From Viridothelium virens (lineage: Eukaryota; Ascomycota; Dothideomycetes; Trypetheliales; Trypetheliaceae): a stretch of DNA of 64,000 nt. Where the stretch lies: the NCBI GenBank assembly GCA_010094025.1, contig ML991852.1:1-64000 (forward strand), in the 5' to 3' direction. The first letter of the stretch is position 1, and every line of letters begins with the position of its first letter. Shown here one piece after another: positions 2,555-34,928 of the stretch. Position numbers and translations under genes: made by a program. The notes under the pieces were generated by a model. The model was not told the origin of the DNA, made no database searches, and saw only the letters and a list, made by a program, of their open reading frames with translations.

Positions 2555-4762
2555 CTAGGGACGGGATTCCGCTCCGTTCCGCACTCCATCACGTGTCCAA
2601 TCCCATGCCTCCACCCTCTCTATTCTGCTCCCATCATTAGCTCCTTGCCAATCGCTAGCCCAGATGAAGGTCGTGCATCGCCATTGCGTTCCTCGCTCTT
2701 TGTTCCCACTTGGACTGATCGGTCTCGCACACATCCAGAATTCTCGCCCAAGATTGAATCCCTTTTTCTTTGACTGCAGTCTCATGCATGGCTCATGGTG
2801 CGATTCGCACCGAGGTGCAGCCGGCTTTGCGAAAAGGCGGTCCCAGGATTCTTTGGAGACGATAGGATCAAAGATGGTAGGCGACTCCGGGTCGTCACAT
2901 TCTTTTGTGAGATCACTGTTGCCGGGCTTCTCGGTTGTCACGCCTTGATCTGAAGGCTGTTCGTCTCCGGACGCGATGTGGATATGAGTACTTGCTTTGG
3001 TTTGGACATGGCTTGACTGTGAAGCTATAGGAGTTGTACTGTCTTTCTTTACTTCGGCCAGTGTCTCAGCTAAATCACCCTCTGGAGGATTCTTACGTTA
3101 CGTTAGACTCATTTGCGGCTTTCCCTCTAGGCAGATCATCACTAACCTCCGTTGGCTTCGCTGCTGTCTTAGGTTTGAAAAAGCCCCTTAAGCTTTGTTG
3201 CCCTTTCACTGGAGGCGTTGGAGGGGTGCTGGTAGTTTTTGACTTGCTGCGTTTGACTGTCTGCAAAGGCGACGATGAGGAAGCCTGGCGCTTCTTGTCA
3301 GTACGCGGCTGCTTTTCTGTCCTTTCAGGTGACGACGTCAATGAAGCAGTCTTCTGAGATTCATTCTGCGCGGCAAAAGATGACTGTGTCGAAACATTAC
3401 TCGATGGCTCCATCAGCGATTGTGGGAGTGTTTTTGACGCATCATCGCCGGACTCAGCAGCGCTCTCGACCTTTGCAAGAGACGGTTTTCGGGAGAACAT
3501 GTCCTTGATATTTCGCCGCTTCTTGAACTCTGGGAGTAACCTACAGGAGAAGGCTGGGATTTCTTTGGTATTGTAATCCCACTGCCGAGCTCCTCCCTTG
3601 AACATCCCAGGAGGATTCATCATATCAAGGAGGGAAACGAGTTCACTACTGTCTTCGACAATGTCCTTGAAGACAGCATAGACGGGGCAATGGTCGGAGC
3701 CCTGTCTGTGCTGTCAGCCAATTCCGTCAGGATCAAGCAGAAATGAGAGGACAGACCATGAGTCCTTCCTGAATATTCGCTTCACGGAACCATGTCTTCA
3801 TACCGATACTGCAAAGAATATAGTCAATCCTAGAGCCGTAGTTGCCAGGGCGAGCATTGATTTTCTGTTCCCAATGAGTGTACATGCCCTTCCTATTCGG
3901 ATGAAACTCTCTGCAGATATCCCATAATATTGGCTTCTCCCGGCCTGGATCTCTATCACCAGCCACGGGTCCACCTTCGACGAGCTGATTGAAAACACGA
4001 CGGTTTGGGGTTGATATGTAGTCTTCATGAGATATGTTGCTCTTTCGCATATCCTCTTCGGCGTTCGCGGTCTCGATCTCGCTCCGGGAAACATTGAGAT
4101 CACCCGTTAAAATCACTCGCTTTCCCATGGCGTGCAAATTACGAATACGAGTGTCCAGCGCCGTCAGGAATGCATAGCGAAAGTCTTCGCGCATACCATT
4201 ACTGTTGGCAGGACTGTAGACACCAAATAAAACGAAGGCGGGAAATTCGAGGATGACACAGCGACCCTCAGCGTCCAGTGCTCCGGCATCAATCTTCTTA
4301 GAATCATCCATAATTGAAGCCGGGATGAGGCCGGAGATTTGCTTTTCAGTGAGATATCCGCCAATTTGTTGTTCTTCAGGAAGTTCGCGATATTGACATG
4401 ATGAGTTGGGAGGGCATAGAACACCAATGAGACCTTCTTCGGCTCGAATTGGTGCACAGACAGATTGGCGCGTGTAAATGGCGACCCCCGAGTATCCTAA
4501 TATCGGATCAGACTTCTGACGTATGTGTAAGCTTCGTTCTCAATTTACCTTTCTTATGCTTCGGTAGGCTGTAGTAACAATCCCAGCCAGGCACTAAGAC
4601 CATGTCATCGGTGAGATCTTTGCGTTGTATCTTCAGTTCTTGCATGACCACGATATCCGCCTCGAGAATATCGAACATGCCGTTGAAGGTCCTCTGATCT
4701 CGCCATGGTTGGTATCCAAATGGATTGCGGATCCCATTCACATTCCACGTCGTGATTCGCAT
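2555..4762 (-). CDS. APN2: AP endonuclease 2 (DNA-(apurinic or apyrimidinic site) lyase)
   Basis: Class II AP endonuclease that cleaves the backbone 5' to abasic sites and trims 3' blocks in nuclear base-excision repair. The model has four exons (4762-4549, 4496-3757, 3701-3097, 3038-2555) and encodes 680 residues. The endonuclease/exonuclease/phosphatase core occupies about residues 1-335, with NVNGIRN, QELKIQ, GDLNVS, SRIDYIL and the C-terminal SDH triad. A PCNA-interacting motif QQSLRGFF sits near residues 486-493, and a GRF zinc finger (cysteines within about 597-641, ending TFIWASDW) near the C-terminus. The start is the ATG directly before RITTWNVNG. The third intron (58 nt) lies in low-complexity linker sequence and is the least certain junction. 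APN2 is head-to-head with COX13, a classic MAT-flanking pair. Confidence 0.95.
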
Positions 4763-5041
4763 CGTAGCAAGAGCTTCCGTCGCTTCATAGCTGATTAAAG
4801 GAGATGAAGTGAGGAATGACTGCCTCAGCCAGTGCACACCGGAGCAGATGTCAACGAGGTCGCGTTCCGCGACAAGCTGGGTGTTGAAGTGACGCCTGTT
4901 CACGTGATGCAAAGTGACGTTGGATGGAAGTGAGGTGTGACAAAAAGTTGGCAATATGGACTTGGCCGACTTCACATTCTACGATCAAAAGGTATACACT
5001 TCATCGTACTCAATTGCATTCAACTTCACATTATACACAGA
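4763..5041. promoter_or_regulatory. Shared divergent promoter APN2/COX13
   Basis: These 279 bases separate the start codons of two divergent genes, so they must hold both promoters. A palindromic CACGTG lies at 4901-4906 and a TGACGT at 4915-4920. These match the consensus of bHLH (Cbf1-like) and bZIP/CRE binding sites respectively; binding is not shown by sequence. Confidence 0.5.
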
Positions 5042-5691
5042 ATGTCGGCTTCCAGAATGTTACTGCGCAATGCGCGCGTTGTACCTCGTCGAGCGGCTCT
5101 TCGTCGACCCTATTCTTCTGAAGCTGGCGGACAATCTGGTTTCTCTGGAGCGCAGGACAATGCTTTCAACCGTGAGAGGAAAGCCGTGAAGGACCACGCT
5201 GCAGCTACAAGCGGTCAGTACAGCTCTCAGAAACAATCTTAAAACTCAGACGCTGCTGCGAACGAGCCTGCTGCTAACAAGACTACCAGATCTTTGGCGA
5301 AAGCTGTCCATCTAGTAAGACCCTTCGTTCCCCCTGGTTATGGGCTCAGTGCCCGCTTTGTGGCATGGACAGTTCACAAATAGAGGACCTGACAATTGCC
5401 ACAGCGTAGTCGTTCCATCTCTCATCCTGGGCGGAGCAAACGCGTGGAGGCTGTGGACCGAGCACTGGGAGCATTGGGAACATGAGCTCCACGAGCACCC
5501 CATGGAGGAGCGACCACAATTCCAATATCAGAATATTCGGACGAAGAATTACCCCTGGGGTGATGGCGACAAGGTACGGACTTGCATTTTGCTATCCTGG
5601 CTCTCCAAAAAAAATGCCAGCGCATTACTGATTTGGAATGTAGACTGCGTTCTGGAACGACAAAGTCAACTATCACAAGAAGGACGAGTAA
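5042..5691 (+). CDS. COX13: Cytochrome c oxidase subunit VIa
   Basis: Small nuclear-encoded subunit of respiratory complex IV, inserted in the mitochondrial inner membrane, where it tunes oxidase activity. The model has four exons (5042-5213, 5290-5314, 5405-5573, 5644-5691) and encodes 137 residues. The N-terminus is rich in Arg and Ala with no acidic residues (MSASRMLLRNARVVPRRAAL), as expected for a mitochondrial presequence. One membrane segment follows the DLWRKLS motif. The conserved matrix/intermembrane part contains HWEHWEHE, the ERPQFQYQNIR block and KNYPWGDGDKTAFWND. The second exon is only 25 nt. Head-to-head with APN2 and tail-to-tail with APC5. Confidence 0.95.
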
Positions 5692-6049
5692 ATACGAGCT
5701 GGTTAGTCTGATAACGCGGATTAGGCAAGAGCCACTGTGACTGCAATATCGAATTGGTGTGTATCATAAAGAGCGCTTTAGAGACGAAGAAACACAGGGT
5801 CGTCCAAACATAACCCCGGATCTAGCTCGTGAGAGTGACCATCTTCAAACATGCTAATGTCTGGACGATCCTCAAAATATCTCTTGTTGTTCTAATGTCT
5901 GCACCTGGGTATCTTCCACGTGAATCATCCGTCCTCTAATGTGCCCTCACCCAACCAGATTTTAGTGATTGTGGTCTGTTAGACCATAGCGCTCCCCAAA
6001 AGAATCCTAGCTGCAGCTTGAGTACTATAACCGCGGGAAATTTTGTCCT
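5692..6049. other. Convergent 3' intergenic region COX13/APC5
   Basis: These 358 bases hold the 3' ends and terminators of two converging genes. No gene or repeat is visible. Confidence 0.6.
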
Positions 6050-8866
6050 TTATTCTGTCGTCTTCTGTTTTTCAGGCATGAGCAAGGTAAAGCTCGAATC
6101 TGGGCCGCTTTCCTCTTTCATCCTCTCAATCGATCTATCATGCAGATGTACATATTCCGCAGCCTTCTTGCTCGTAGCTGTATCGTCACCTCTCAACCGA
6201 CAAATGATGGCTTGCTTGGCAAGCATCTCAAGCTGACCATTGAGATCCTCAACTCTTTCGTACCCTGCAACCAGCTCGCGTCAGCTCGCAATCTCCAACG
6301 GTCAAACTCAGAAGAAACCGTGTTGGGCTAGACCTACATTCCATAGCGCGCGAAAGAAATCGGTTCGCTTCGAACAGACTTCTACTTCGCTCTCGTGTTC
6401 CTGACTCTGCATTACCAGCGATGCCCATATGGGCGTCAGCCTGGGTAGCAAAGAGTTCCGCGCACAGCATTGAATCCTCTCCTTCGAGAGCCTATGTCGG
6501 TTAGTTTAGTTGACGATGTAGTGTCGGTATCAACCTGGTGGACGTGCCTGCGGTGTGATCCCATCAAGTAGCTTGACTGCCGCCGCGAACTCCTTCAAGC
6601 TAACCAGAATATTACAGAGCACCCCCACCGCCTCCCAAGCCGCAGGCATAATTCTCGCTTTCAAACTCGCGTTTGCTGCCCGTAAAGCGACGCTGAAGCC
6701 CATCTCTGGTTTCCCAGCCCTGGAAAAGACTTTGCCTTTGCAGCTCAGCACCCGGATGCGTTGGTACACGTCTGCGCCTTCGTCTTTGAGACGAACACCA
6801 AGGTCTTCAACAAGATCGAAGGCAGTAGGAAGCTTTTGTTGACGAATCAGGTAGTCGACCTCGAGCAGTGCAAGCTCTAGATTGAGTTCAGGATCGAGTG
6901 GTGAAGCGGCTTTGAGTCGTGAGAGGAGGTGAGAGGATGCTACAATGTTGTTGCTATGCAAATGTGAAGGATTAGTATACAATCTAGGGATTAATGTAGA
7001 ACAATCCGAACATACTGGTGTAGCTGTTGCTTAAGCTTCAGTATGCCGGAATAAGTCGTCAGATATTGATAAAACTTAAGCACGCGATTTACTTCTGGAG
7101 TCATCCCGTCGAGGAGGTCCATGGCACGAGTATACTTACCCGCCTGAGCGGCCTTAGAACGCCATCGTCAGCTGGGAAAACCCAAAGTATTGCTGGAGCA
7201 TCATTACCATGTAAGCTAATCGGCAAGTCGCGCGAAGGTTTTCCTCTACTGGAGAGCTACGTCCATGGCATACCTTCAGCACCATGGCTTGTTGCTTTGC
7301 TGGCTCTGATAGACCTGGACGTATATCAGGAAATAGCATACAAATGATGGATATCCTATAGTAACGTACCAAGTCTACTCAGAACTGAAGATAGCATGAG
7401 CATTTGTGCACCGGTAACACTGGCAAGTTCGTGATGGAGGTTGAGATGCGAGGATTCGTAAAGGTGCTCAAGCGCTTGAGAGATGCTATCACCCTGCCGC
7501 ATCGAATTAGAAATGGCAATGAGGAATCCGAACAACCGCAGGACTTACATTCGAAAGACGGAGTTTCGTCTGACTGAGCAAAGTCGAACTGAGTAAGCTC
7601 CACATCTTGTCGTCTCTCGCTTTGGACTCCAAAAACTCAAGTCCCTCTCGCTCTGAGCCGATGACCTCTCGGTACCCTGCAGCTTTCATTTGGCCAGGAT
7701 ACGCTTTACTCAGGTGATAAAGCCAGCTGAGGCTGAAGTTCAGACAACTCATGTCCTGGTTTTCTCGAGCAGTAGCGATAGTCTCCTGCATGGCAGCGTA
7801 GGCCTCGCCGAAGCAGCCAAAATCTGCTTGGAGTACTGCCATGTGGAGCAAAGCGTATTGGTAGTATGTTTTGTCGCGTATGGACATGGTATAGTCAAAA
7901 TAGCGGTGGAGATTATCGAAGGCTGAGGTATAATCTCCAGCCCGCCAAGCATCAAAGAAGCTAGGCATAATTAGCAGGAGATGGTGGAGCCTCTTGGAGA
8001 CCTCAACGTACTTGACGAAATGAGACAAACTTGGAACGGAAATGCCAGGGCTGACCATGGCTTGAAACTGTCTCTTCATTTCTTCTGGCACTCTGTTTCC
8101 ATATTCTAGAGCAGGTTAGTGATGGATAACGAGCAGGAAATTGGAGCATACTTTGGAGTTGCTCAATCTGATATTCTAATAATCGCTCGACATCCTCATT
8201 GCTGGCTCCCTCCTGCACGTTTGTCTGGTGTGAAAGATATCCGTCCAATGAAGAATGTAGCATCAATGGGTCTGCTCGATTGAGGCTCATGAGCTCGGGA
8301 TGTCTCTTCCGTACGGCAGCCTCTGTTGGTGCTCTATAGCTGACGAAGCTCTCCCATAGCTTGATGGTATCATCGAATTGAAGCCTAGTAAACTCCAAAC
8401 ATGCCCGCCGCACGAAGAGGCCTACTGGGGAATTTCGCCGAGAAATTGGATTTTCACGTATCTTGGGCCGTTTGTTGAGTTCATGATCAAGCTCCTTTTG
8501 AATGCGTTCTTCAGCAGTTGGCGCGAACACATCAAAAGGAAGAATTTTGAAGAAGCTATGAAGGTCGTCGAGACATGTGAAGTCTTGCCATATTTTTTGG
8601 AGAAATACATCCCATGCATTTTGGCCCGGCCAGCTGGCGCGCCTACCAGCCCTGAGAATTCTCTCAAAGTCGCTCAGCTGGAGTGCTGCCCACCCGGGTG
8701 CGGTTGGTGACGCGCCGGGTACGATGAGAGAAATCACGAAGGAGAGAATGTCATAATATGATACTAACTCAAAGCCGTTGTACTCGGCTCTGGGGCTCCA
8801 GCTAGTTGAGTACAGCCAGATCAGTGCTAGAACGCTGACCTTTGACGGAGTGAGATAGCGCGACAT
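6050..8866 (-). CDS. APC5: Anaphase-promoting complex subunit 5
   Basis: Scaffold subunit of the APC/C ubiquitin ligase, which drives anaphase and mitotic exit in the nucleus. The model has eight exons (8866-8152, 8105-7549, 7493-7370, 7314-7208, 7152-7016, 6953-6548, 6491-6338, 6264-6050) and encodes 804 residues. The N-terminal MSRYLTPSKVSVLALIWLY is the family signature. The rest is helical TPR-type sequence, including the FDAWRAGDYTSAFDNLHRYFDY stretch near the middle. It ends with the conserved YVHLHDRSIERMKEE block. The start is the ATG in front of SRYLTPS. The sixth intron (6547-6492) appears to use a GC donor (CAG|GCACGT) with a good branch sequence, because no GT donor keeps the frame. 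APC5 next to COX13 and APN2 is standard MAT-region order. Confidence 0.93.
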
Positions 8867-9245
8867 TCTGCACAACTTCGGTCTAAGGTGGAGGGAATCC
8901 TACTCATGGCAAGACGGCTCGAAAGGTTTAGGATGTGGGAAGATTGGCGTTGAGGACGAGAAATGGGGAGTGCTGGGGCCTTGACGCGTCCCGAAGCGTC
9001 CTGACGCGTAGAAGTCGCCGATCCTCGTGATCAAGAGATGCCGCATTGCGCGAAGACTGAGAGCCACGAATTATAGTCACAAGGTTTTGCAAGTTTCGAA
9101 GTCGAACTTGATAAAGGTGTCGCTATATATAATGAAGAAGCCACGCAAGTACCTCTGCCTCGGTAGTCGAGAAGCGAGCGCAACCCTACTTTACCAATCT
9201 CGAGGTATTGACACTCTCAGCACAGCATCTATCTCTTCTACGGAG
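8867..9245. promoter_or_regulatory. APC5 upstream region
   Basis: These 379 bases lie between the APC5 start and the ADE1 stop and must contain the APC5 promoter and ADE1 terminator. A GC-rich patch with repeated TGACGCGT/GACGCGTC-like sequence lies near 8980-9010. This could bind MBF-type cell-cycle factors (ACGCGT core), which would suit an APC/C gene; the function is inferred. Confidence 0.4.
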
Positions 9246-10454
9246 TTACACTATGTTCTCATCCCATTTCTTCCCCACTAGCCTCTCGTACACCTCTATA
9301 TACTTCGAGGCCGTCTTCTCCCTAATGTCTTCTGGAATTTCTACACCAGCTTGCCCCTTCAGGCCACTCTGGCTCAACCAGTCTAAACAGTGAGCTTGGA
9401 TGCAGGAATGAGTTTGGGTTTGAGACAACTTACCACGGAGGAATTGTTTATCGAAGCTCTGTTGGCTTTGCCCTGGCTTATACTCATCTGCTGGCCAGAA
9501 TCTACTGCTATCAGGCGTCAGAACTTCATCGATGAGGACGACCTCGTCAGTCTCCTCATCTACACCAAACTCGAATTTCGTGTCGGCGATGATGATGCCA
9601 CGTTTGAATGCGTAATCCCGAGCCTTGAACAGTTAGGTGCCCTTCGAAGAACAGGAAGATTGGTGAACGACAAACTTTCGTATAAATCTCAAGGCTCAGC
9701 TCTTCAATCCTCTTCGCGTACCGAGATCCTACCAGTTCTGCGGCCTGGTCAGGATGTATGTTTTCGTCACTCTCTCCAGGCGGTGCCTGCAGCTATGTAA
9801 GTCAAGGCTCACAGATATCGATAGCGACCTTCACCTTCGTGCTAGGGGTCCAGAGAGGCCGTAGAAGCTGATCGCTTTCCTTCAACTTGGCTCCATCCTC
9901 TCCACTAACAGGAATTCCGTGTATTGTTCCCCTTTTGCAATACTCGGCCCATGCGCTTCCGGTGATATAGCCTCGGACTATAGACTCAATGGGTAGGGCT
10001 CTCAGTCGGCGAACTTGCATGCTTCGAGACTGCAGTTGCCGAGCACCTTCCACTTGAGGCTCTTGTAAGAGAGACTGGGGAAGATCAAGCGTAACGAAAT
10101 GCGTCTTGAGCGAAGGGATGAGCGAGGGTAGCACTGAGAACCAATGCGCGGAGAGAATGTTCAGAAGAGCGCCTCTCGTTGGTATACCCTACATCAGGGC
10201 CTATGGTCAGTTTTGACCTCGAGCATTAGAGTTATATGGTAGACATGAGACTAACATTCTTGAGGACCACATCGTTGGCAGATCTATGCAGAGGTATTAG
10301 CTTCAGTGTACGAGGCAGACGCCATTACTTACATTCGATCTGTCGCAACGAAGAGAAGGGTCGACTCGTCGATTTCATATACATCGCGCACTTTGCCGCT
10401 TGCAACTAGGTGCAACTTCCCACCGAGGTCTGTCTTGATGAGCGAAGACTCCAT
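9246..10454 (-). CDS. ADE1: SAICAR synthetase (phosphoribosylaminoimidazole-succinocarboxamide synthase)
   Basis: Joins aspartate to CAIR using ATP to make SAICAR, the seventh step of cytosolic purine biosynthesis. The model has six exons (10454-10333, 10283-10256, 10188-9835, 9786-9676, 9623-9434, 9382-9246) and encodes 313 residues, normal for fungi. Family motifs in order: SGKVRDVYEIDEST near residue 20, ATDRISANDVV near 40, GIPTRGALLN, IVRGYITGSAWAEY, SDENIHPDQA, DTKFEFGVDEET and the DEVLTPDSSRFWPADEY block. The 28-nt second exon carries the ISANDVVLKN segment. Two donors are weak (GTTAGT, GTTTGT) but are forced by conserved protein sequence. Same orientation as APC5, with which ADE1 is often linked near MAT. 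Confidence 0.94.
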
Positions 10455-10552
10455 TGGTGTAGTCCAAAAGGAAAGTACCAGAAGCACCCTGATGTTGTAA
10501 AATAGGTGGTGGAAGCTTGTAAGTTGAGCCACGGAGACAAGGACCTACCTTA

Positions 10553-13966: not shown

Positions 13967-14190
13967 TTCTATCCCTTGCGCTGGTGCCGCGGGCTGTTGC
14001 GCACGGATGTTTTTTGTATGGGAATTTAGCTATTTTCGAGTAAGACACGGTGTGCATGTAAATTGACCTGCATGGAGGTTATCTGAAGCTATTTTGAAGG
14101 TGGTGATCTAGCTAGCTGAGGTATCTATGTTGTTGACACCTAAAATCGCACCCTTTTCCTAGGTCTCTGCCTCTGTTCGGCTTCATCACC

Positions 14191-14260
14191 TCCCTCCCTA
14201 CCTACCTGCCTACCTACCTGCCTACCTACCTGCATACCTACCTGCCTACCTGCCTGCCTC
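14191..14260. repeat. CCTA/CCTG tetranucleotide repeat
   Basis: About 70 bases of alternating CCTA and CCTG units lie inside the PiggyBac remnant, where the transposase reading frame dissolves. The repeat is probably a late expansion. Confidence 0.85.
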
Positions 14261-14269
14261 TATATACAT

Positions 14270-15031: not shown

Positions 15032-16249
15032 CTAGACCTCCGACGTCGTACCAAGTAGCTTCAGAACCACCTCATATACGCCAAACATAATGGCAGCACT
15101 CGGCACAACTCTCATCATGTGTGGTACCAAACCTCCGTACAAACCAACCATGCCTTCTTCTTTGAAGACAAGTTTGAAGCATTGCACGAGGCCAGTGTAT
15201 TTCGGTCGTCCAGTCTCCAGTGGCGCCTGCCGTAACCGAGTGCGGACGACCTCATGCGGATACGTGACAATGGCAGCGACAAACTTTGCCATGCCTGCAG
15301 CGCCCAGCTTACCTGTCCAAGTGACCGTGTCGTCCCAACCCGTCGTCAGCCTTCCAGACAATGCTATCCGCTCGTCCCGTTTCCGTAGGTACAGCTTCAT
15401 CTGCTCGTAGAGAACCCATTGCAGTGTGCTCTCCGTAATCCCAAGATAGCTGGCGCTGAGTCCCCGGTATAAGCCCCGTACCCCTTCATTCCGCACGGTC
15501 TGCATCGTGCAATCCAGCGCATTTTTGTACCGTCTGGCCTGAACCGATCCCGCGCGCTCCGCATGCGATCGATCCAGCTGCAACCGCGTCTTGACGAGCC
15601 AGATGGGATTCGTGACGGTGCCGGTGATGATGCCTGAGGTCGCAGCCGCGCAGAGATGGACCCAAGCAGACTCACGACCGTCGTTTAAGTATTTGCTGAT
15701 GATTTTTTTTCCGTTGCCGTAAGTGAAGAATTTGGTCGCCTGGGCTGGGATGACCGCTACGAGGTTGGGACCGAGACCTTTGAAGAGGGCGCGCCAGCCT
15801 TCTTGGCGGGGGATGGCGAAGAGGATCTGAAATGTCTCTGTGATGTGGAGAATGGCACCGCGAGCAGGAGAAAGTTGGGAGAGTGGAGGGATGCCTCGAG
15901 CGGCACGCGTGGCGGCCAGTTGGGTTTGGTAGAAGTCGGATTGGAGACGCGTTCTCAGAACGTCGAGGGGACATGTGATCGTGGATGCTGTCATTCCACC
16001 AAGACTGCGATTGGAAGGCTCCCGTCAGTAATAACCTTGATTGCGAATGGTGAGTGAGCCATACCCTCCAGCTACGAAATGCGCCCATGATTTGCCCAGG
16101 GGCGCATTGGCGGCTGCTACCGGTGCTCCATTTTGTTGCTTCGTCGGCAGTACTGGTACTGTCTCGCCAGGCTGTGGAATTACTGCCTGGATGGCTTTTG
16201 AGGGTGTGCTTGGGAGTCGCTGATCTCCAGGAACTGAAGGGCTGCTCAT
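15032..16249 (-). CDS. RIM2: Mitochondrial pyrimidine-nucleotide carrier (RIM2-type)
   Basis: Inner-membrane carrier of the SLC25 family predicted to exchange pyrimidine nucleotides between cytosol and matrix for mitochondrial DNA and RNA synthesis. The model has two exons (16249-16065, 16004-15032) and encodes 385 residues. The three carrier repeats show the signatures PLDVLRTR, PIWLVKTR and PHEVVRTR; the Trp in the second (PIW) is characteristic of the RIM2/SLC25A33-36 branch. The N-terminal about 45 residues are Pro- and Ala-rich, before SWAHFVAGG opens helix 1. The intron (60 nt) splits the GGLGGM loop. Divergent from CIA30, another mitochondrial gene. Assignment to RIM2 rather than a folate/FAD carrier rests on the PIW motif and overall similarity from memory. 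Confidence 0.85.
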
Positions 16250-16580: not shown

Positions 16581-17431
16581 ATGAGACCTTCTGCACAGAT
16601 GCTAGCCCCAGGTTTCTGGCGGCGAAGTCTCGATGAATTCAAGCGACTTTCAGGTATAGGTACGGCAAAAAATCCCAGGGCACTCCCAGAGGGTCAATAG
16701 CTAATACAAGTTGATTAAAAGCTATAAGGTTCGAAGCGATTGATATCCCGAAGACTCCCAGACATCTCGCCTCTTTCGATGATTCCGAGTCGTTATCGCT
16801 GTGCAAAACCATGTCTGATGCCGACATTGGCGGCTTCTCCTCCTCTGCCCTGGATTACTATCCCGCGACCGCAAGTGAACCTTCTCACGCGCGATTCAAT
16901 GGCACCATCTCTACAGAATTGCCTCCAAATCAGCCACGAGTACAGCGTACCGGCTACGCGGGCTGGCGTACAAGGGACATGTCAGCAACGATATTTGGGA
17001 GGTCACTTTGGGATATTGACCCGTATACCTATTGTGCTTTGCGAGTGAAGAGTGACGGTCGTAACTATTTTGTGAACGTCCAAACAGATTCGGTGATTCC
17101 CACAGATCTTCACCAACACCGTCTCCACGCGCGGAGGCCGGGACAGTGGGAGACGGTGCTGATCAATTGGAATGAGTTCGTGCGTACGAATCACGGCATG
17201 GTGGTAGAACCGGCGTCGGAGATGATGAGGCAAAAGGTGAAGAGCATAGGAATTAGCCTGATTGATAGAATTCCTGGGCCGTTTGACTTGAGCATTTCTA
17301 GGATATGGGCAACTAATGGCTTGACGGAGGAGGATAAGAAAGAGTTCGGAGATCAAGACGGATCAGAATTCGGCCAGCTGGGAGGATCGCAGTCTATCAA
17401 AGGTACACTGAGGGATGAGAAACCCATATGA
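16581..17431 (+). CDS. CIA30: Complex I intermediate-associated protein 30 (NDUFAF1 family)
   Basis: Assembly factor that binds an intermediate of the membrane arm of respiratory complex I in mitochondria. The model has two exons (16581-16653, 16722-17431) and encodes 260 residues. The N-terminus reads FWRRSLDEFKRLS and then FEAIDIPKTPR, as in the family. The CIA30 domain covers about residues 60-220, with MSDADIGGFS, YAGWRTRDMSATIFG, LWDIDPYTYCALRVKSDG, YFVNVQTDSVIPTDLHQHRL and NEFVRTNHG. The tail is acidic and Gly/Ser-rich. The intron (68 nt) contains a good GCTAAT branch site. In several fungi CIA30 lies close to MAT with APN2 and COX13. Confidence 0.93.
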
Positions 17432-17736: not shown

Positions 17737-18591
17737 CTACTCTTCCTCTTCCTCCTCATCACCACCCTCTTCCTTCTTCTCCGCAGCCTTGGCCTTCTTT
17801 CTCCTGACACGTCCCGGTCGTCCACCACCGAATGGCGAGGTGAGTGCAAAGTCGATGTGCTTCTGAGAGTCAAGACGGACAATGAAAGATGGAACATTGA
17901 CAATCTGCTTGCCGACACTGCAAATACTGTTAGTCCCACAGTTCCAGAGGCGTCAAATCACACCAAAATTTCGTCTTACCGGATATGCCTTTGTTTGATC
18001 AAAACACGCGCATGGTGGATCGACTTCGCGAGGCCAAGTTTGTAGACGCAAGTCTGCAGTCGACGCTCTAGGAAGTCCTCAAGTTTAAGGGCCAACACGT
18101 AGTCGAGCTTCATGCGGGATTCATCGAGCACACCGACTCGGACGAGTCGGCGGATGAGGGCATTGCCTTCAAAGAGACGTTTCGGATCTTTTTCATCCAA
18201 TGTGAGAAGTTGACTGCAAAGCGGCCGTATCAGTAAAAGTATACATTTGATTGTAGAACCTTGTAGTGAGTAGGAGAGCAATTGAATTTGCATACCGCGC
18301 AGCACGACGAATCTTAGACAGTGTCAAAGACACACGCCAGACCTCACGTTTGTTACGAAGTCCGAATTCGCCAACAAGCTTCAGCTCAGAATCTCTGTTT
18401 GCGGGTTAATTGAGATGCTCAACGACGTAAGCAGAGACAAGCTCATGCTCAGTGGCCGGGAGATACTGACAGACGAGCAGACTCGAATGCTAAAGTCTAT
18501 GTCAGCAAGCGCAGTCATTCTGAGAATAGATATGTAATGACTTACGGCGACGCGGAGTCTTGTACGTCTTGCTATACGGTTTTGGAACCAT
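17737..18591 (-). CDS. RPS9: 40S ribosomal protein S9 (uS4)
   Basis: Small-subunit protein that binds 18S rRNA early in assembly and lies by the mRNA entry site. The model has five exons (18591-18546, 18489-18471, 18394-18296, 18213-17980, 17917-17737) and encodes 192 residues, the normal eukaryotic length. The start [19 protein letters not shown] is diagnostic, and the S4 RNA-binding domain includes [21 protein letters not shown] and [20 protein letters not shown]. The tail is highly acidic (EEGGDDEEEEE). Exon 2 is a 19-nt microexon that must be included to keep the PFESARL sequence. Divergent from RPL37 over a 292-bp promoter. Confidence 0.96.
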
Positions 18592-23471: not shown

Positions 23472-24929
23472 CTAATGGACGAGCTCGTCCTTGCCAAGCA
23501 GTCTTGCCATCGGGTCATCAGCAGCTACTTTCTTTCTTCTGTAATCATCCATCTCTTCTTCCGTTGCACCTCCAATCATTTCATCGACCGTTCTCTTCGT
23601 ACGTTTAAGCTTTGCCGAATCATCTTTTCTCTGCTTCTCGTCGCTCTCCACACCATTTGGAACGTACTTCTCCTGATCCTCTTCTTCCTGCCAAGCCAGC
23701 GACATTGGTACTTCTTCTGAGGGTAGCTCTTCTGCTGTGCGCAATCGATTGGACTCTTCAAATGCGACCTTGCCTTCCTCTCCAGTGCAGTAGCTATTCT
23801 TGGATATAGAATGGCAGCACGCATAGCCCCATTCGAAGTCGCTCCACCAACTACCCCATACTGAAGTGTGATTATTGACCAAAACATCCTCAGCATACTT
23901 GCTCTTCGCCTTCTTCGCTGATTCGCCTTTGATGACCTTGCCCCGGTCATCATACTCCACGTACCGTTCCGTTTCTGCTACCTTGGGGCGCTTTTGTTGC
24001 AAATGCTCCTGACCACCATATTTGGCCAGCAGGGCCTTTTTCTGCTCACCCTTTGTTCTTTGTTTTTCCTCTAGCTGCTTCTTCCTCGTGAACTCACCAG
24101 ACGTGGGCATCGCCTGTAGATGCAATGCTTTCTCTCCCTCACGTTCTTGTGTTTCCCATGCATATCGCTGCGCCTTTTCGAATTCGGCTGCATCACCGGA
24201 AGCACGCATGAAGCCTTCTTCTGCCACCAAAGCCGCAGCATTATCTGCCGTTGCGCCGCTATCCACCATAGTTCGTGTTTTTGGATCATATTTCGCTGAA
24301 TCGAGGTCGAGATTAAGTAGATATTTTGCAGTATCTTCTCGTATTCGCAGATTTCGGGTCGAGGTCGCTTGCTTCCGGCCCATATCGGTTTCTGCCTCAT
24401 ACCGATCGCCTTCGTACTGACCTTCCTCACTGTCCGTGTCCTTAGTCTGGTCGGCTTCTTCTCCATCTACGCCTTGCGATTTCTTTTTCATCTCCTCTGC
24501 GCGATTGTAGTCCGTCACTACGGCTTCGTACTGCCGAGCATCGTAGCCATTCCAGCGATCTCTCTTCGCATCCCATCCTAACTGCACATCTTGCACTACC
24601 TCATCAGCCTGGATGTCCCTGCCTGTCCATTTTGCTCCAGCTTTTCTTGGTCGACTCAGACATTCCTTGGTCTTATGTGTTAGTGCACCACAATTCTCAC
24701 AGGCGCCTTTCCGGAATTTGGTGGCGGCAGGACCGAGCTTGCGACCGCGATCATACCATTTGGAGTCTGAGGCGGTGTCCTTTTGTTGGAGACGTTGATG
24801 CTCCAGGTAATCGTCGTCATTTTGGAGGTCGTCGACGTAGAAAGGTTTCTTGGAGATGAAGGAGGGAATGTATTCGTTGCGTTCGTTATTCTTGACGGGC
24901 TCTGTTGCGTTCTTGGTGGGAGGTGCCAT
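23472..24929 (-). CDS. SLU7: Pre-mRNA splicing factor SLU7
   Basis: Second-step splicing factor that helps select the 3' splice site in the spliceosome. A single exon encodes 485 residues. Features in order: an N-terminal [15 protein letters not shown] block; a CCHC zinc knuckle ([14 protein letters not shown]) near residues 78-91; [24 protein letters not shown]; the central [16 protein letters not shown] region; and the conserved [19 protein letters not shown] and [18 protein letters not shown] blocks. The C-terminus is charged. The start ATG opens directly onto the conserved N-terminus. Divergent from REV3 over 405 bp. Confidence 0.95.
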
Positions 24930-25334
24930 GACGAATCTCAGAAGTACTCAAGAAAGTGGCAGAAACGAAGGTCAAATGCGCTAATGTAAGTTCACCTGCG
25001 GTGGAGTGTCTCCCGGGACTTCACGTTGTAAAGATAAGGTTAATTCTGATCAGATTAAGTTTGATCGGAGGTCCGTGGGAGCAGCGGAGATTGCGCAACA
25101 TGGCTTGGGGTCCCTGTTCGGCATGTGGAATGACCCGCATATAACGCGATCAACTTTGTTTATCCCCCACAGGGGACCCTTACGCCTCACTCCTGTACAC
25201 TCGCTACACACCTTGGGTGATTTTGGATCCATCTGAAAATGCTTTCTTGGTTCGCTACTACCGTCCGAATTTCCATATAGCAGGATGCTGCTATTAATCC
25301 CCCAACACCAACATCAGGGACTTGAGCCTGGTTG
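24930..25334. promoter_or_regulatory. Shared divergent promoter SLU7/REV3
   Basis: These 405 bases between divergent starts must contain both promoters. No specific site is recognised. Confidence 0.45.
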
Positions 25335-28300
25335 ATGGACCTTTTCAGAGTTCGTCTAAACTGCGTAGACCACTATCAGGCGGTCCCTACAGACCTTGAC
25401 CCAAATATTGGAGGTCATTCATCCTCTTCGCAGCGCAGAAATGCACCACACGTTCCTGTCATTCGAGTATTTGGTGCGACAGAGACAGGGCAGAAGGTCT
25501 GCGCACACATCCATGGCGTGCTACCTTACCTATACTTGAAATACGATGGAGAGCTCTCAGGGGAGAATAGTCAGTCTTGAAAAAGTTTGAGAGTAGCACA
25601 ATGCTAATGAGATCTCGACAGTCAGGGCATACATCCACAACCTTCGCATCTCGATCGACCATGCTCTTGCTGTCAGCTACCGTCGTAATCCCTACGATGG
25701 CAAGGCCGTTTTCGTCGCCCACATCACCCTCATCAAGGGCGTACCATACTACGGGTACTCCGTCGGCTATCAGCATTTCCTCAAGGTCTACCTGCTGAAC
25801 CCTCTCAATATGACACGACTTGCGGATCTCTTATATCAGGGCGCGATTATGAAAAGAGTTTTCCAACCTTACGAGAGTCATCTGCAATATTTGCTCCAGT
25901 GGATGTGCGACTATAACTTGTATGGCTGCGCGTACATAGATTGCGACAAGCCTAGATTTCGAAGTCCCGTACCAGAATATTTAGAGTTGAACAGTTCAGC
26001 CCACAAGTGGCACGATCGCTCCATCCCTACCGAACTCATTGAAGACTCAGATCAGTTTGCTCGCCAGAGCCATTGCTCGATCGAGGTAGATATTTGCGTG
26101 CAGGACATTGTCAATCGAAGGGAAATCAAACCACGCCCTTTGCATCATGATTTCATTGAACGGTTCAATTATTTGACTGATGACGAAAAGCTTGTCCAAT
26201 CAATGGCAGGCTTGTGGCGTGACGAAACCAAACGACGCAAGAGGAGGATGGGATTGAAAGATCCTTCGAGCAGCCCATTTCCACCAGAGGTTCTCATCTC
26301 TATGTCAGCAGATCCAAGAGACACTTCCAAAGGGGGCTGGATACACGAAGAAGAATATCGCGCTATGATCAAAGACTTGGCAAAGGATGAAAGACAGAAG
26401 AGCGGCGGGAACAAAATTTCATTCGAGGACTTCGTACGTCCAGAGACTGCCAACATTCGAATTCAAACAGCGCTGGAGAGTGTTGAAGATTTGTTCACCG
26501 AGAATCTATGCAAAACTGGTCAAACTGATTACCTCGATCTTCCAAAAGACATTGATGATGAGGGAAGAGATGCACCAATCCTTTCGGCGGCACTCGTTGA
26601 TGAAACAACAGTCAGCAGGTTCAACAGTGATGACTTTTACCACGATTCGGACGAAGAAACAGCTCGCCGACTGGCCTTGTCTCGGCACACTGATGCTGCG
26701 AAGGGGATGACTAGTGGATCTTCGGACAGCGAAACCTCCCAACTAGATGGTGCTATTCGTCCCTTTGGAGTAGATAATGGAAAGACGTCTGGGAGTTTGA
26801 AAGACCGGCTTCAAGTACCTCCGACTCCGAAATCGCTCTCCACGCAACAACGCCAGCGGGCCAGCCTACAAGGACACCGGGCTGGACAGTTCGACGGCCA
26901 GGCGTTTGATCTAGTCAGAGAGTATGGCGAACATATCGAGCATGATGCCGGGTTCTTCGAGGAGCCAAAACAGTCCTCGAGATCAGCGAAGAGGCAGAAA
27001 ACATCACGCAGCCCAGGCCACACTGTGTCTCAAAGTGGCAATACACGGGAGGACATACAAATTAGCGAGGACTCTATAGAGGCGCAGCCATCAGCTTCGG
27101 CCGAAAGACCCAAGCCTGGACTGGAGTTCGATGACTACGTCGACTCAGATAGTTCTTCCAACTTACTGCAACATGTACCGGAAGCGTCTTCTCAACGTGA
27201 GAAAAATGTACAGATCAATGGAAACCTGAACAAGTTGTCGTTTCCAGTAGTTAAAAATCCCCATCACCCGGATACTGCACTGCGTTTAAGTCAAAGAAGT
27301 GGTCACACGGGCTCTCAAAAATCCGCAGAGCCTAGCAGTCAGAATATCTCAAGTCTCGGACTTAGTTCTTCGTCAGCGGCTAAGCAAACTGGATCCGGAC
27401 GCTCTCCTGCAAAATCCAGCAGCAGCTCTGCCGATTACCCCAGCCACCGATTGCAACTCCCACTAGCCTGCCTTATTCATAATAATTTCCAGCCTTCTAG
27501 AAATGTTTATATGTATTACTTTAACCAACGCCCCCCTTCAGCGCAGATGGTCGAGTCAACGATGAAACAGTGCGGACGTCCACCTATTATCTATCAGGAT
27601 GCATACTACAGTAATGAGAGAGACGTACCAGAAAGATCACGAGAATACGCAGGTCGTGAATTTAAACTCGAGAGCACCACCTTGCCCTATCTCCCGGAAT
27701 TCGACCCGGCCGGAAGGACTTTGGCGGTTTTTGGGGAGAAAGTACCGATTGTTGTCGACAGAGCAAAGGAGAAAAGGCAGAACAATTTGCGACGCGCCAA
27801 ATGTACTATCCGGAATTGGGAGATTGCAGCGCCTCCCCCTTCGCAAAGGGAAGTCCGAAGTTGGCTTGACGTGGAGCAAGAGCGAAAGCGCTTGGCAGAT
27901 GGACTGCGGACCGGGACCGATCAGGCGGCCCCTAATCTCTCCCAGATCGATGGCCCCACTCAAAAGAACAAACATGGCTTCAAGTATTCTCAGAAACATC
28001 AGTCTACTAGTGTCCAACATGAGACTCAATATATGAGTACCATGAGCCTCGAGGTGCATGTCAATTCTCGTGGTACCCTCGCACCAGATCCGGCGGAAGA
28101 TGAAATTAATTGCATTTTCTGGTCTATTCGGTCCGATGATGAAGAAATTACAGATAGTAATAACAATGAGGGGATCAGGATTGGAGCAATTGTGCTGTCA
28201 ACCGATGATAAGGATATTGCACACAAGATAGAACGGCAGACTGGAGCTGAAGTTCACGCCGAGGATGATGAGCTTGATTTAATCAACAAGCTAATCGACA

Positions 28301-30621
28301 TTGTTCGGGATTTTGACCCTGACATTCTTACCGGCTTTGAAGTGCACAATGGTAGTTGGGGATATCTCATTGAACGTGCCCGTCTCAAATATGAGTACGA
28401 CCTTCCTGACGAGCTCTCTCGTATGAAATCCCAATCGCATGGCCGCTTTGGCAAGGACGCGGATCGCTGGGGCTTCACGCATACCTCTACCATTCGCATC
28501 ACTGGACGGCACATGATCAACATATGGCGAGCAATGAGGAGCGAGCTAAATCTGTTGCAGTACACTATGGAGAATGTGGTTTTTCATCTCCTTCAAACAC
28601 GCATACCCCATTATTCGTTTTATGACCTGACGAAATGGTACACATCGTCGTCCGTCCACGATCTTACCAAGGTCATAGCCTACTTCATAGACCGAGTGCA
28701 GTTAGATCTCCGAATTCTCGAGGCAAATGAGCTTATCCCACGCACATCCGAGCAAGCACGTCTTCTTGGCGTCGATTTCTTCAGCGTCTTCTCCAGAGGC
28801 TCTCAATTCAAGGTCGAATCTCTCATGTTTCGCATTGCCAAGCCCGAGAATTTCATTCTCGTCTCGCCTAGCCGAAAGCAGGTCGGGCAGCAAAATGCGT
28901 TGGAATGCTTGCCATTGGTCATGGAGCCGCAGTCTGCCTTCTACAACTCGCCGCTCCTGGTTCTAGACTTTCAGTCGTTGTATCCTTCGGTGATGATTGC
29001 GTACAACTACTGCTATAGTACCTGCCTTGGCCGTATAACATCTTGGCGAGGAGCAAACAAGATGGGATTCATGGACTTTGAGCGCGAACCCCGGCTTCTG
29101 GAGCTCGTCAAAGATCACATCAACATCGCCCCCAACGGTATGATGTACGTCAAGCCCACCATGCGGAAAAGCCTTCTCGCCAAAATGTTGGGCGAAATTC
29201 TCGAGACGCGTGTGATGGTAAAATCCGGCATGAAAGTGGACAAGGACGACCGCACTCTCCAGCAACTCCTCAACAACAGACAATTGGCGCTCAAACTCAT
29301 CGCTAACGTCACCTACGGCTACACGTCAGCCTCTTTCTCCGGCCGCATGCCCTGTGCCGAGATCGCCGACAGCATCGTCCAGACCGGTCGCGAAACTCTC
29401 GAAAAGGCGATCGCGCTCATCCACAGCGTGTCCCGATGGGACGCCGAAGTAGTGTACGGCGACACCGACTCGCTCTTCGTCTACCTCAAGGGACGCACAC
29501 GTGCTCAGGCCTTCCAGATCGGCAACGAGATTGCCGACGCCGTCACTAAGCAGAATCCGCGGCCCGTCAAGCTCAAGTTCGAAAAGGTGTACCACCCGTG
29601 CGTCCTGCTCGCCAAGAAGCGCTACGTCGGGTTCAAGTACGAGTCCCCGACACAGGCGGAGCCGGAGTTCGATGCCAAAGGGATTGAGACGGTGAGGCGG
29701 GATGGCACGCCCGCGGAGCAGAAGATCGAGGAGAAGGCGTTGAAGCTGCTGTTTCGCACGAGCGATCTTAGCCAGGTGAAGGCGTATTTCCAGGACCAGT
29801 GCACGAAGATCATGCGCGGCAAGGTGTCGGTGCAGGATTTCTGCTTCGCGAAGGAGGTCAAGTTGGGGACGTATTCCGAGCGTGGACCCCCGCCTCCAGG
29901 GGCGCTCATTGCGACAAAGAAGATGCTGGCGGATCACCGGGCGGAGCCGCAGTATGGAGAGCGGATTCTGTATGTCGTTGCGGCGGGGGCGCCAGGTGCG
30001 AGACTTATCGATCGTTGTGTGGCGCCGGAGGTGCTGCTAGCGGATGAGGAGATGGAACTCGACGCTGAGTACTACATTTCGAAGAACCTGATTCCCCCGC
30101 TGGAGCGTATTTTCAACCTTGTCGGCGCGAATGTGCGGCAGTGGTACGATGAGATGCCCAAGGTGCAGAGGGTCAGGGCTTTTGGTGCTGGTGGAGGGCA
30201 AGAAGATGGTGTGGGAAGGGGGCTGTTCGGTCACGCGCCGGGCAGAAAGACACTGGAAAGGTATTTGCAAAAAAGCGTATGCCTAGTGTGCAGGACAAAG
30301 CTAGCTCCGCCGAAGTCTCTCGCAGAAGATAAGGAGCTGCCGCTATGCGCGGATTGCAGGAAAAGGCCATCAAGAGCGATCCTGGCGCTGAGAACGAAGC
30401 TCAGCACGGCGGAAAAGAAGGTGGCGGACGTGGAAAGAGTATGCAGGAGTTGTGCAAACTTATCTTGGAATGATGAGGTGAAGTGCGATTCAAGGGATTG
30501 CCCTGTCTTCTATTCAAGAATCCGGGCAAAGACGAAAGAGGGTGTGGAGAAGGCTGGGATAGGCGAGATAGTGGGAACCTTGGAATACGCAGAGGGAAGG
30601 AAAAGTGTCTTGGAATGGTGA
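25335..30621 (+). CDS. REV3: DNA polymerase zeta catalytic subunit
   Basis: B-family polymerase that extends from mispaired or damaged primer ends in translesion synthesis. The model has two exons (25335-25569, 25622-30621) and encodes 1744 residues. The N-terminal polymerase-delta-like region (VPYYGYSVGYQHFLKVYLLN) is followed by a long Ser-rich linker. The catalytic core has DFQSLYPSVM near residue 1194, KLIANVTYGYTSASFSGRMP near 1300 and YGDTDSLFV near 1357. Two C-terminal metal sites follow: CysA (CLVC...LCADC, about 1632) and CysB (CRSC then CDSRDC, about 1686), the iron-sulphur site that binds accessory subunits. GC at third positions rises sharply in the core (about 29.0-30.1 kb). Intron 1 is 52 nt with a GCTAAT branch. 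Confidence 0.96.
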
Positions 30622-31223: not shown

Positions 31224-34200
31224 ATGGCGCTCACCTACACCTCTCGCAACGTGGATATGGGCAAGTATGTTTCGATCTTTCCGCTCCTCCCAGCATCATG
31301 AAGTTGATTGCATAATCTAGGTCTGAAGCGCAGCTAGCAGAAAATATCAGAAAAGCTACAAGCATAGGTATGTTCGAGGAACTACTGAGGGCACCACAAA
31401 CTCACTGACTGAAAACCCCGCTTACAGAGGAAACTGCCCCAAAGCGTCAGTAAACCATCTCCCATTCAGACTACGCGAAGCTTACGAATCCCGAAGGGAA
31501 ACATGTGCGTGCTGCTATTGTATACACCTGGGACCACAAGTCCTCACAATCCTTTTGGGCTGGCATGAAAGTGTGAGTTGTGCAGCCTTGGCGCTTAGGG
31601 ACTTGCCAAGCTCATCCTCAACCCAGGCAACCTATTTTGGCGGATGAAGTACAGACATTCAAGGCACTGCAAACAATACATAAGGTCCTTCAAGAGGGTC
31701 ATCCCATCGCTCTCAAGGAGGCGCAAGCCAATGTCGGTTGGCTCGACACTTTGGCAAGGGGTGTTTCAAGTGGGGAAGGGTTGAGAGGTAAAGAATGGTA
31801 ACCCTACGGTCGAAGAAAAAGGACAAGGCTCATTCCAGGCTTAGGATATGGACAATTGATCCAGGAGTACATATACTATCTAAAAGCAAAGTTGATGTTT
31901 CACAGGCAGCATCAGGAGTTCAACGGTACGCGATGCTCGCTCTTATACCCATTGGAGTCTACTGATACGGGCACTAGGGACTTTCGAATATGAGGAGTAC
32001 ATTAGCTTGAAGTCTACTAATGATCCAAATGAGGGGTGCGTGGGCTTGGTGCAGAAGCGCTATTCATACAAATGCTAATTGCGTTGCAGCTACGAGACCA
32101 TCTATGATTTGATGACGTTGCAGGACCAGATCGACTCATTCCAGAAACTGATATTCTCGCATTTCCGTGGTGGTGGTAATAACGAATGTCGAATAGCCGC
32201 GTTGGTACCCCTGGTTCAAGAGAGTTATGGGATATACAAATTCATCACCAGCATGCTTCGCGCTATGCACACAGGTACGGTCCTGTCTACTGGGCCCTAA
32301 AGTTGAAGACTGACCGAAACCTTTAGCTCTCGGAGATGACGAAGCCCTGTCACCACTCCGTGGTCGATACGATGCCCAACATTATCGCCTGGTAAAATTC
32401 TATTATGAATGCTCCAATCTGCGATATCTTACAAGCCTCATAACTGTGCCTAAACTTCCCCAAGACCCCCCAAATCTTCTGGCTGAAGAGGAAGGACGCC
32501 CAGCTTTACCACAGCGACCGAAACAAGAAACGGAGCGGGCTGCCACGCCACCTCGACCAGCAGCACCCGATCCCGAACCAATCAACGAATTCTGGAAGAA
32601 TGAACAAGCAAGAGAACAGGAACAATTTGCAGAGGAGCAACGGAGATTGCAGGCACAATACGAGGCAGCCCAGAGACAGCAACAAGAGGAGGCTTTGCGA
32701 CGACAACAAGAGTTTGAGCAACAGCAGCGTCTGCAGGCCGAGCAGCAACGGCTAGCGCAAGAGCAGCTCCAACGGGATCTCTACAACCAGCAGGCTCAAG
32801 GACGATTAGCTGAGCTCGAACAAGAAAACTTCAACGCCAGGCAGCAATATGAGCGGGACCAGCTTCTGCTGCAGCAGTATGATCAAAGGATGAAGAGTCT
32901 AGAGAATGAGCTGCAGCAACTGAATGCCAATTTCAATCAGCAAACCCAATCCAAAGATGACCAGATCAAAGCGCTGCAAGAGCAAATCAACACCTGGCGC
33001 ACCAAGTATGAGGCATTAGCCAAACTCTATTCTCAGCTACGGCATGAGCATCTCGAGCTCCTACAGAAATTCAAGGGAGTGCAATTGAAGGCAGCGTCAG
33101 CTCAGGAAGCAATCGATCGGCGAGAAAAGCTTGAGCGTGAAATCAAGACCAAAAACCTTGAGCTTGCGGACATGATTCGTGAGCGTGACCGAGCATTGCA
33201 CGAGAAGGACAGGACGACTGGTGGTCATAAGGAAGAGCTGGAGAAGCTCAGACGCGAGCTGCGCTTTGCCTTGGAAAAGGCTGAAAATGCCGAACGAGGG
33301 AAAGGCTCGGAGTTGTCGGCCATGCTTTCACGTCACAACCGAGAGATCGCGGACCTGGAAGAGGCTTTACGAAACAAGACTCGGGCTCTCGATGATATGC
33401 ACATGAAGTATGGAGAGCAAGACTCTGATCTTGAACGACAGCTTCGCGAGAAGGAGGAGGAGCTGGAAATATTCAAAGCTGGCATGGATCAAACACTTCT
33501 GGAGTTGGCTGAATTAAAGAAGACTCATAATGATACTGACCACGCGATGGACGGCCAAATCGATACTCTTCTGCTCGATAATATCCGCAAGATCAACGAC
33601 ATAATTGACTCAGTCTTGCAAAGTGGTGTCCAACGTGTTGATGAAGCTCTATACGAGCTAGATTCAACCATGCAAGCTGGTAATCAGAACGCCACAGGAT
33701 CATATGTCCTTTCGCAAATTGAGAAGGCCTCTTCCACTGCCATGGAGTTTAGCACCGCCTTCAATAACTACATCGCGGACGGACCCAACAGTAGCCACGC
33801 TGAAATTATCCGGACCGTCACCACGTTCTCTTCCTCCATCGCAGATGTCCTCTCTAATACCAAAGGTCTCACTCGCTTCGCCTCTGACGATAAGAAGTCT
33901 GATCAGCTCATCAACGCCGCTCGAACCTCTGCCCAAGGCACCGTTACCTTCTTCCGCAGCCTTCAATCCTTCAAACTCGACACCCTCGACGACAGCGCCC
34001 GAACCGACGTCGTCATCAACAACAACTCGGACGTCCAAGTCGCGCTGCAACGTCTCTCCAAGCTCGCCGACGCCTTCGCCCCGAAATCCAAAGTAACCCA
34101 AGGCCAAGGCGACATCGGCGACATCGTCGACCGCGAACTCAGCAACGCCGCCAAAGCCATCGAAGCCGCCACCGACCGACTCGCCAAGCTCAAGAACAAA

Positions 34201-34928
34201 CCACGGGACTCCTACTCCACCTACGAGCTCCGCATCCACGACTCCATCCTCGACGCCGCCGTCGCCGTCACCAACGCGATCGCGCAACTCATCAAAGCGG
34301 CCACCGACTCCCAGCGCGAAATCGTGGCGCAGGGGCGCGGCTCCTCCGGGATGTCGCGCACGCAGTTCTACAAGAAGAACAACCGCTGGACCGAGGGCCT
34401 GATCTCCGCCGCGAAAGCGGTTGCGTCGTCCACGAACACCCTGATCGAGACGGCGGATGGCGTCATCTCGGGACGGAACTCGCCGGAGCAGCTGATCGTC
34501 GCGTCGAACGATGTTGCGGCGAGCACGGCGCAGTTGGTCGCCGCGAGCCGTGTCAAGGCGAGCTTCATGTCGAAGACGCAGGAGCGGCTGGAGGGCGCGA
34601 GTAAGGCGGTCGGCCAGGCGTGTCGTGCGCTTGTAAGGCAGGTGCAGGAGATTATTGCGCAGCGGGCGCAGGATGGGGAGGAGAAGGTGGATTATGCGAA
34701 TTTGGGGAGTCATGAGTTTAAGGTGCGGGAGATGGAGCAGCAGGTGAGTTTGAGCCCTTTTTTTTTCCTCTCCTCTCCTCATTCTGTTTCGTGGTCTGAG
34801 TTTTTGCTAAGGGGAGAGGCTGATGAATCTGGTCGTTCTAGGTTGAGATTCTGCAGCTGGAGCAGAGCCTTGCGAGAGCGAGGACACGCCTGGGTGAGAT
34901 GAGGAAGATCTCATATCAAGAAGAATGA
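31224..34928 (+). CDS. SLA2: Cytoskeleton assembly control protein SLA2 (END4/HIP1 family)
   Basis: Endocytic adaptor linking phosphoinositides and clathrin coats to actin at the cell cortex. The model has ten exons (31224-31264, 31321-31367, 31428-31445, 31497-31572, 31627-31787, 31839-31925, 31978-32035, 32090-32274, 32327-34743, 34842-34928) and encodes 1058 residues. The ANTH domain fills about 1-280 (HVRACIVYTWDHK-like start, FHRQHQEFNGTFEYEEY). A Gln/Glu-rich coiled coil spans about 320-630. The talin-like I/LWEQ (THATCH) actin-binding module lies near the C-terminus (NRWTEGLISAAKAVASSTN near residue 908) and ends in a short helix, LGEMRKISYQEE. Exon 3 is only 18 nt. SLA2 is the classical partner flank of MAT opposite APN2. 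Confidence 0.96.

Follow-up and report, generated by a model that had tools for sequence, protein, structure and literature searches.

Genes and features of the APN2-SLA2 block

Mating-type (MAT) loci are textbook examples of a conserved, syntenic control locus. The window analysed here, the 64,000 nucleotides at the start of a contig of 117,112 bases (C82) in the assembly of the ascomycete Viridothelium virens (30.7 Mb, 175 contigs), carries APN2 and SLA2, the two genes that border MAT in the canonical Pezizomycotina order SLA2-MAT-APN2, in one block without a MAT gene. Intact MAT genes are present on two other contigs, and short pieces that span their transcripts fully or nearly are scattered over the assembly. 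The block contains the following features:

1..2400, no strand: AT-rich contig end beside APN2, 24.9% G+C
2555..4978, minus strand: exons of APN2 (DNA lyase), from open frames; Pfam Exo_endo_phos, E 2.3e-10 on 3736-4539
4934..5711, plus strand: COX13 (COX6A), from open frames; Pfam COX6A on 4934-5239, E 2.3e-4
6530..8899, minus strand: long frames of the gene called APC5 in the initial annotation, name not confirmed
9249..10188, minus strand: SAICAR synthetase (ADE1), Pfam E 4.1e-26 on 9249-9632
15032..16024, minus strand: mitochondrial carrier (RIM2-like), Pfam Mito_carr, E 1.8e-67 (frame 15035-16024)
16715..17431, plus strand: CIA30, Pfam E 1.7e-41 (frame 16715-17428)
17979..18323, minus strand: main frame of RPS9, by motif search
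within 17300-20200, plus strand: frame of RPL37, by motif search
23472..24947, minus strand: SLU7, Pfam Slu7, E 3.7e-87 (frame 23475-24947)
25597..30621, plus strand: REV3-like DNA polymerase, Pfam DNA_pol_B, E 6.2e-107
32314..34902, plus strand: SLA2, Pfam ANTH, E 3.4e-50, and I/LWEQ, E 2.3e-11 (frame 32314-34899)

The Pfam matches place APN2 and SLA2 on C82 about 26-27 kb apart, which bears out the initial annotation in its joining of the two genes in one block. Ten open frames of the window were searched against Pfam, and two of them were without a match, namely the frame at 8006-8899 (minus strand), which had been named APC5, and that at 20463-21512 (minus strand). The gene content given earlier holds for ADE1, the RIM2-like carrier, CIA30, RPS9, RPL37, SLU7 and REV3, as well as for COX13 by a match under the cut-off (22.0 bits against 25), but not for the name APC5. 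The REV3-like frame (25597-30618, plus strand) also has a C4 zinc finger.

A six-frame profile search of the whole assembly at E ≤ 0.001 gave two matches to the alpha-box (PF04769) and ten to the HMG-box (PF00505), none of which lies on C82 or, within it, between 4.8 and 31 kb. The canonical order is thus not found here, and the block from APN2 to SLA2 contains no MAT gene, as had been read from the sequence before. The run APN2-COX13-APC5-SAICAR-CIA30-RPS9 is typical of the side on which APN2 lies, and SLU7-REV3-SLA2 may therefore be the part that moved. Displacement of MAT from the SLA2-APN2 interval, proposed in the initial annotation to be due to inversion or transposition, is real in this assembly, but one genome cannot tell the two events apart. 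The AT-rich end (1-2400) is the only spot at which MAT could still adjoin APN2, and repeats at this end are common to the AT-rich part of C150, the contig with MAT1-2-1. Elsewhere in the window, a dispersed repeat at 13968-14259 has matches on C21, C64, C46, C68, C136 and other contigs.

Two intact MAT genes on other contigs

MAT1-1-1 is located on C147, where the alpha-box scores 116.7 bits against a cut-off of 28.1 and the frame runs through three exons with no internal stop; the second alpha-box match, on C69, is short. The ten HMG-box matches fall at eight places, including C150, where two parts of the box (38 and 35.1 bits, cut-off 25.4) are separated by an intron in a serine codon, a site that we take to be typical of MAT1-2-1. 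The gene has an intact frame of three exons and a sequence that is presumably MAT1-2-1-like, and its HMG box, intron site, presumed likeness and a flank common with the MAT1-1-1 contig identify it as MAT1-2-1. A further HMG-box gene lies at C54:58509-58778 (L019), with its box split between two frames. Loss of MAT, the other possibility raised in the initial annotation, is ruled out by the two intact genes. The union of SLA2 and APN2, with both MAT genes on other contigs, illustrates how a MAT locus can be dissolved and its genes still be kept.

C147 (19.1 kb) is AT-rich towards either end and also carries RRM, PX and NVJ2-like (MMM1-domain) genes, and C150 (18.4 kb) is AT-rich over its left 13-14 kb. 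About 0.9 kb of repeat-bearing sequence adjoining MAT1-1 recurs inverted beside MAT1-2-1 (L014:6440-7376 and L016:3430-4110), and a third copy was not listed in the genome search, which passes over very common words. The two copies are 15-24% apart and differ by 110 transitions and 35 transversions; in the C150 direction C>T plus G>A changes number 92 against 18, a pattern like that of repeat-induced point mutation (RIP). Since the flank pair is RIP-like, it favours, without proving, the presence of both MAT genes in one nucleus. We infer that the organism has homothallic-type gene content and a MAT region away from SLA2, perhaps still near APN2.

The gene beside MAT1-2-1 (L016:6085-7213) diverges from it and contains a weak homeodomain-like stretch (E 0.027), and MAT1-1-1 is accompanied by a frame of 205 amino acids without a Pfam match (L014:5430-6044); these second genes are possibly candidates for MAT1-2-12 and MAT1-1-10, respectively. 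At the end of C150, a 112-bp sequence (L016:8250-8361) is found nearly unchanged near the ends of C3, C17, C19, C153 and C160, and elsewhere, among the matches listed. The C150 end was considered as a telomere and rejected, as a double TTAGGG is absent from the eight contig ends examined. For 5.8S rRNA there was no match in the assembly, and the ribosomal DNA may be missing from it.

Scattered pieces of the MAT genes

Wider searches with the two MAT regions, one of which scored 40 of its 64 candidates, surfaced short similar pieces elsewhere. Single-gene searches, in which all candidates were scored (9 of 9 and 8 of 8), gave 16 matches to MAT1-2-1 and 15 to MAT1-1-1 besides the intact genes. 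These 31 short matches, with pieces of 37-333 bp, are spread over 13 places and 12 contigs other than C147 and C150, and two pieces of the region beside MAT1-1-1, on C77 and at C1:481 kb, bring the number of places to 15. The pieces and the genes that host them are distributed as follows:

pieces of MAT1-2-1: C59, C43, C19, C25, C57, C4, C21, C1
pieces of MAT1-1-1: C10, C1 (two places), C69, C29, C98
host genes with a piece 3' of the stop codon: SQS_PSY, Peptidase C13, WH2, NIP7, Med10, Whi5, Rpb8, WSC, LSM
host gene with a piece 3' of the stop codon: Alba (24.3 bits, cut-off 25)
host gene with a piece 3' of the stop codon: Nod1-like (below cut-off)

Pieces of both MAT genes meet at C1:154 kb, where one from MAT1-2-1 is flanked by two from MAT1-1-1 (L039:3364-3671). 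Among the MAT1-1-1 pieces at C1:378 kb (L038:3356-4973) there is a weak match (64%) to the gene beside MAT1-2-1, which was seen by lenient local alignment only and was recovered neither by the genome search nor by the spacer search; the spacers between the pieces at this place match nothing else in the genome. As a control, 12 kb of the window were used as query, with 10 of 11 candidates scored. The search did not list its own locus, and beyond that locus it gave repeat-like matches solely at 10489-10544 and 13968-14259, so that 2401-10488, with APN2, COX13, APC5 and SAICAR, has no scattered copies. Likewise, the NVJ2-like gene beside MAT1-1-1 was found once, without scattered pieces, in a DNA search of the assembly.

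The pieces span the mature transcript of each MAT gene fully or nearly, with little redundancy. For MAT1-2-1, 1478 of 1478 nt of the transcript span are covered at a mean depth of 1.47, and for MAT1-1-1, 1135 of 1173 nt at a depth of 1.22. When the same lengths were placed at independent, uniform positions, none of 200,000 placements was as good for either gene in transcript coordinates; in genomic coordinates, 0 and 94 of 200,000 were, for the two genes (14 of the 15 MAT1-1-1 matches were used, a 27-bp match with E 0.449 being left out). In gene order, pieces of different loci succeed each other with junction overlaps of 10-27 bp, and once of 65 bp, and at each of C57, C4, C19 and C29 a segment is present in overlapping copies. 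The MAT1-1-1 cover has gaps of 66 and 84 bp in genomic coordinates, each of which holds an intron.

At 11 of the 15 places the piece is located 9-308 bp 3' of a stop codon, in the same sense as the host gene and in MAT sense itself. For NIP7 the distance is 202 bp when counted from an earlier exon and about 50 bp from the stop of the last NIP7 frame. Judged by eye, the neighbouring genes are convergent at about nine of the 15 places and divergent at none; the excess of convergent placement has a P of 0.004, computed for 9 of 13 loci, with C69 counted as convergent, against an assumed 25%. C69 and C10 are tandem and C57, judged by its frames, is probably convergent; the convergent partners at C57, C25, C29 and C1:481 kb gave no Pfam match.

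Divergence of exons and introns in the pieces

Three pieces span an intron, and in these 554 of 613 exon columns are identical, versus 106 of 200 intron columns; two of the introns are at the mean of shuffled sequence and the third, on C43 (59%), reaches the upper end of its own shuffles. Exon differences are spread evenly over the codon positions (38/40/37 and 71/84/70), with a ratio of nonsynonymous to synonymous differences about 1.1 times neutral; removal of C10 and of the more divergent copies at C57 and C4 leaves this outcome unchanged. Furthermore, the untranslated regions (UTRs) are roughly as close as the exons (18 differences in 173 and 9 in 205). Protein-level constraint and recent descent from a diverged coding gene are both rejected on the absence of codon-position bias.

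Overlapping pieces have few derived bases in common, which indicates that each departs mostly alone from a sequence like the intact gene, and the divergence is heterogeneous among pieces (P 0.008 and 4e-15). The changes are mixed, with a mild excess of C>T plus G>A (57 versus 39 and 93 versus 64); RIP was discarded as the source of this divergence, a strong excess being seen only in the MAT flank. Clustering of perfect runs was considered as a sign of small-RNA selection and likewise set aside: for MAT1-2-1 (981 of 1478 nt, reached in 0 of 2000 shuffles) it is inflated by introns and indels, and for MAT1-1-1 it is absent. Taken together, the contrast between exons and introns, the lack of codon bias and the largely independent, unequal divergence argue against a single break-up and against protein constraint, and for a tie of the pieces to the mature RNA.

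Origin and maintenance of the pieces

The explanation that we favour, with a confidence that stays somewhat below even, is that the pieces originated as copies of MAT gene segments and that their exons have been held near the mature message at the RNA level. The intact MAT gene would be the source, the copies would have entered mostly the 3' ends of ordinary genes at different times, and their exonic sequence would have been kept near the mature MAT message by a process at the level of RNA rather than protein. Such a process could be selection on base pairing, in which sense MAT tracts in the 3' UTRs would be targeted, act as sponges or give rise to exonic small RNAs, or it could be repeated conversion templated by RNA or complementary DNA (cDNA). 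Both versions fit, and pairing is slightly likelier because it would also account for the near-complete cover. The larger finding is that the two MAT transcripts have an RNA-like and almost complete echo, which for the most part lies at the 3' ends of other genes.

Several observations weigh against this explanation. When gaps are left out, the contrast shrinks to 554 of 596 exon columns against 106 of 126 intron columns (P 0.003), the comparison comprises three introns, a small sample, and the C43 intron is at the upper end of its shuffles. The pieces differ from the genes by as little as 1% and as much as 29%, and where pieces overlap, both deviate from the gene at 41 columns where about 28 are expected, with the same base at 19, so that the pieces may in part share a history or the intact gene itself may have changed. 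For MAT1-1-1, 528 of 1173 nt are under perfect runs of at least 20 nt, no more than with shuffled mismatches. Redundancy is present, as the C29 stretch encloses the C98 piece and the C25 stretch encloses a MAT1-2-1 piece of 60 bp from C1:154 kb, and the gene beside MAT1-2-1 has no scattered pieces in the genome search except for the start of the known C59 piece. Four places (C1:378 kb, C19, C21 and C10) break the rule of sense placement behind a stop, and convergent placement may reflect mere tolerance of insertions where no promoter stands. Finally, the homothallic gene content rests on one assembly.

Near-complete cover with low redundancy, and with short overlaps where most of the tiles join, would also be left if staggered breaks or rearrangement had fragmented one extra copy of each MAT gene and scattered it as functionless relics, the overlaps being filled-in ends, and the mixture of pieces of both genes at C1:154 kb agrees with such an event. 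Nevertheless it is quite unlikely, given that the divergence is very unequal, that overlapping pieces share few derived bases, that the introns of the three pieces compared are near-saturated against an exon identity of about 90%, and that the neighbouring NVJ2-like gene has no scattered pieces; a single break-up was abandoned as the simplest reading on the unequal divergence and the star-like pattern, and is retained as a rival. A ciliate-like scrambled gene with pointers was also rejected, in that end overlaps are present but the pieces are diverged and carry stops. The star-like pattern with the intact gene near its root, the contrast between exons and introns, the lack of codon-position bias and the side-by-side occurrence of more and less diverged copies of one segment at C4, C57, C19 and C29 would also be expected if spliced MAT messages gave rise to short cDNAs that time and again converted older pieces or inserted beside them, in the same 3' ends and with no use to the fungus. 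Such neutral renewal seems rather unlikely, because three pieces retain an intron that a spliced cDNA would lack and because renewal alone does not explain the near-complete cover of the messages.

With respect to the MAT genes themselves, two small contigs with one MAT gene each and one common flank beside AT-rich DNA could stem from a heterothallic fungus whose sample was mixed or heterokaryotic, in which case they would be alternative idiomorphs and not reside in one nucleus. This is a rather doubtful origin, since flank copies that differ by 15-24%, with the C>T/G>A excess confined to one side, are far for alleles and the NVJ2-like gene beside MAT1-1-1 is found once by DNA search. Compatible with each of these readings is a move of SLA2 only, with MAT still adjoining APN2 past the AT-rich contig end, which we consider a real possibility if short of an even one. 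The AT-rich end of C82 lies some 2.4 kb from APN2, C147 is AT-rich at both ends and C150 at the left end, and a comparable layout is given for Cladosporium fulvum in the available part of the source, with APN2 proximal to MAT1-2-1 and SLA2 1.43 Mb away (PMC9453070). However, no sequence joins the contigs, and the similarity of the C82 and C150 ends lies in AT-rich DNA that is repeated several times within C150. In both genomes, as far as that part of the C. fulvum source goes, SLA2 no longer flanks MAT, but in C. fulvum APN2 is near MAT, whereas here APN2 and SLA2 share one block and MAT is on other contigs.

To return to RNA-level maintenance, its most specific form, in which RNA-level selection would preserve a segmental mirror of the MAT messages spread over the 3' ends of some dozen housekeeping genes, is rather improbable. 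If true, exonic small RNAs or antisense transcripts would tie MAT expression to the genes for Rpb8, Med10, an LSM-domain protein, NIP7 and Whi5, and thus to RNA polymerase, Mediator, splicing, ribosome assembly and cell-cycle control; alternatively, the 3' ends of the host genes would silence MAT, as a distributed RNA switch for mating.

Relation to other fungi

Fragments of MAT genes as such are already known: many Pseudocercospora and Cercospora genomes are described, in the accessible portion of the citing paper, as having numerous expressed short MAT-related fragments outside MAT1, with origin and function stated as unknown (PMC13041039, citing Aylward et al. 2022). The pieces reported here are alike in being short, MAT-derived and scattered outside the MAT locus. 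As far as that citing description allows a comparison, they are set apart by the near-complete cover of both transcripts at low redundancy, the exon-biased likeness and the placement mostly behind stop codons; expression is stated for the Cercospora and Pseudocercospora fragments. In the literature searched, which did not include Aylward et al. 2022, nothing was found on tiling or exon-biased conservation of MAT fragments. The near-complete cover, exon bias, lack of codon bias and 3' placement make the puzzle of the MAT fragments testable by predictions on RNA. A precedent for the proposed exon-matching small RNAs, which are putative here, is offered by the exonic small interfering RNAs reported for the sexual stage of Fusarium graminearum in the part of the source at hand (PMC5310905).

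The MAT1 idiomorphs of Teratosphaeria carry MAT1-1-10 and MAT1-2-12, according to the portion of the source that was available (PMC7513301), and thus have a second gene per idiomorph. The same arrangement is seen here, with the 205-amino-acid frame beside MAT1-1-1 and the divergent gene beside MAT1-2-1, and, unlike in Teratosphaeria as described there, both idiomorphs are present in one assembly.

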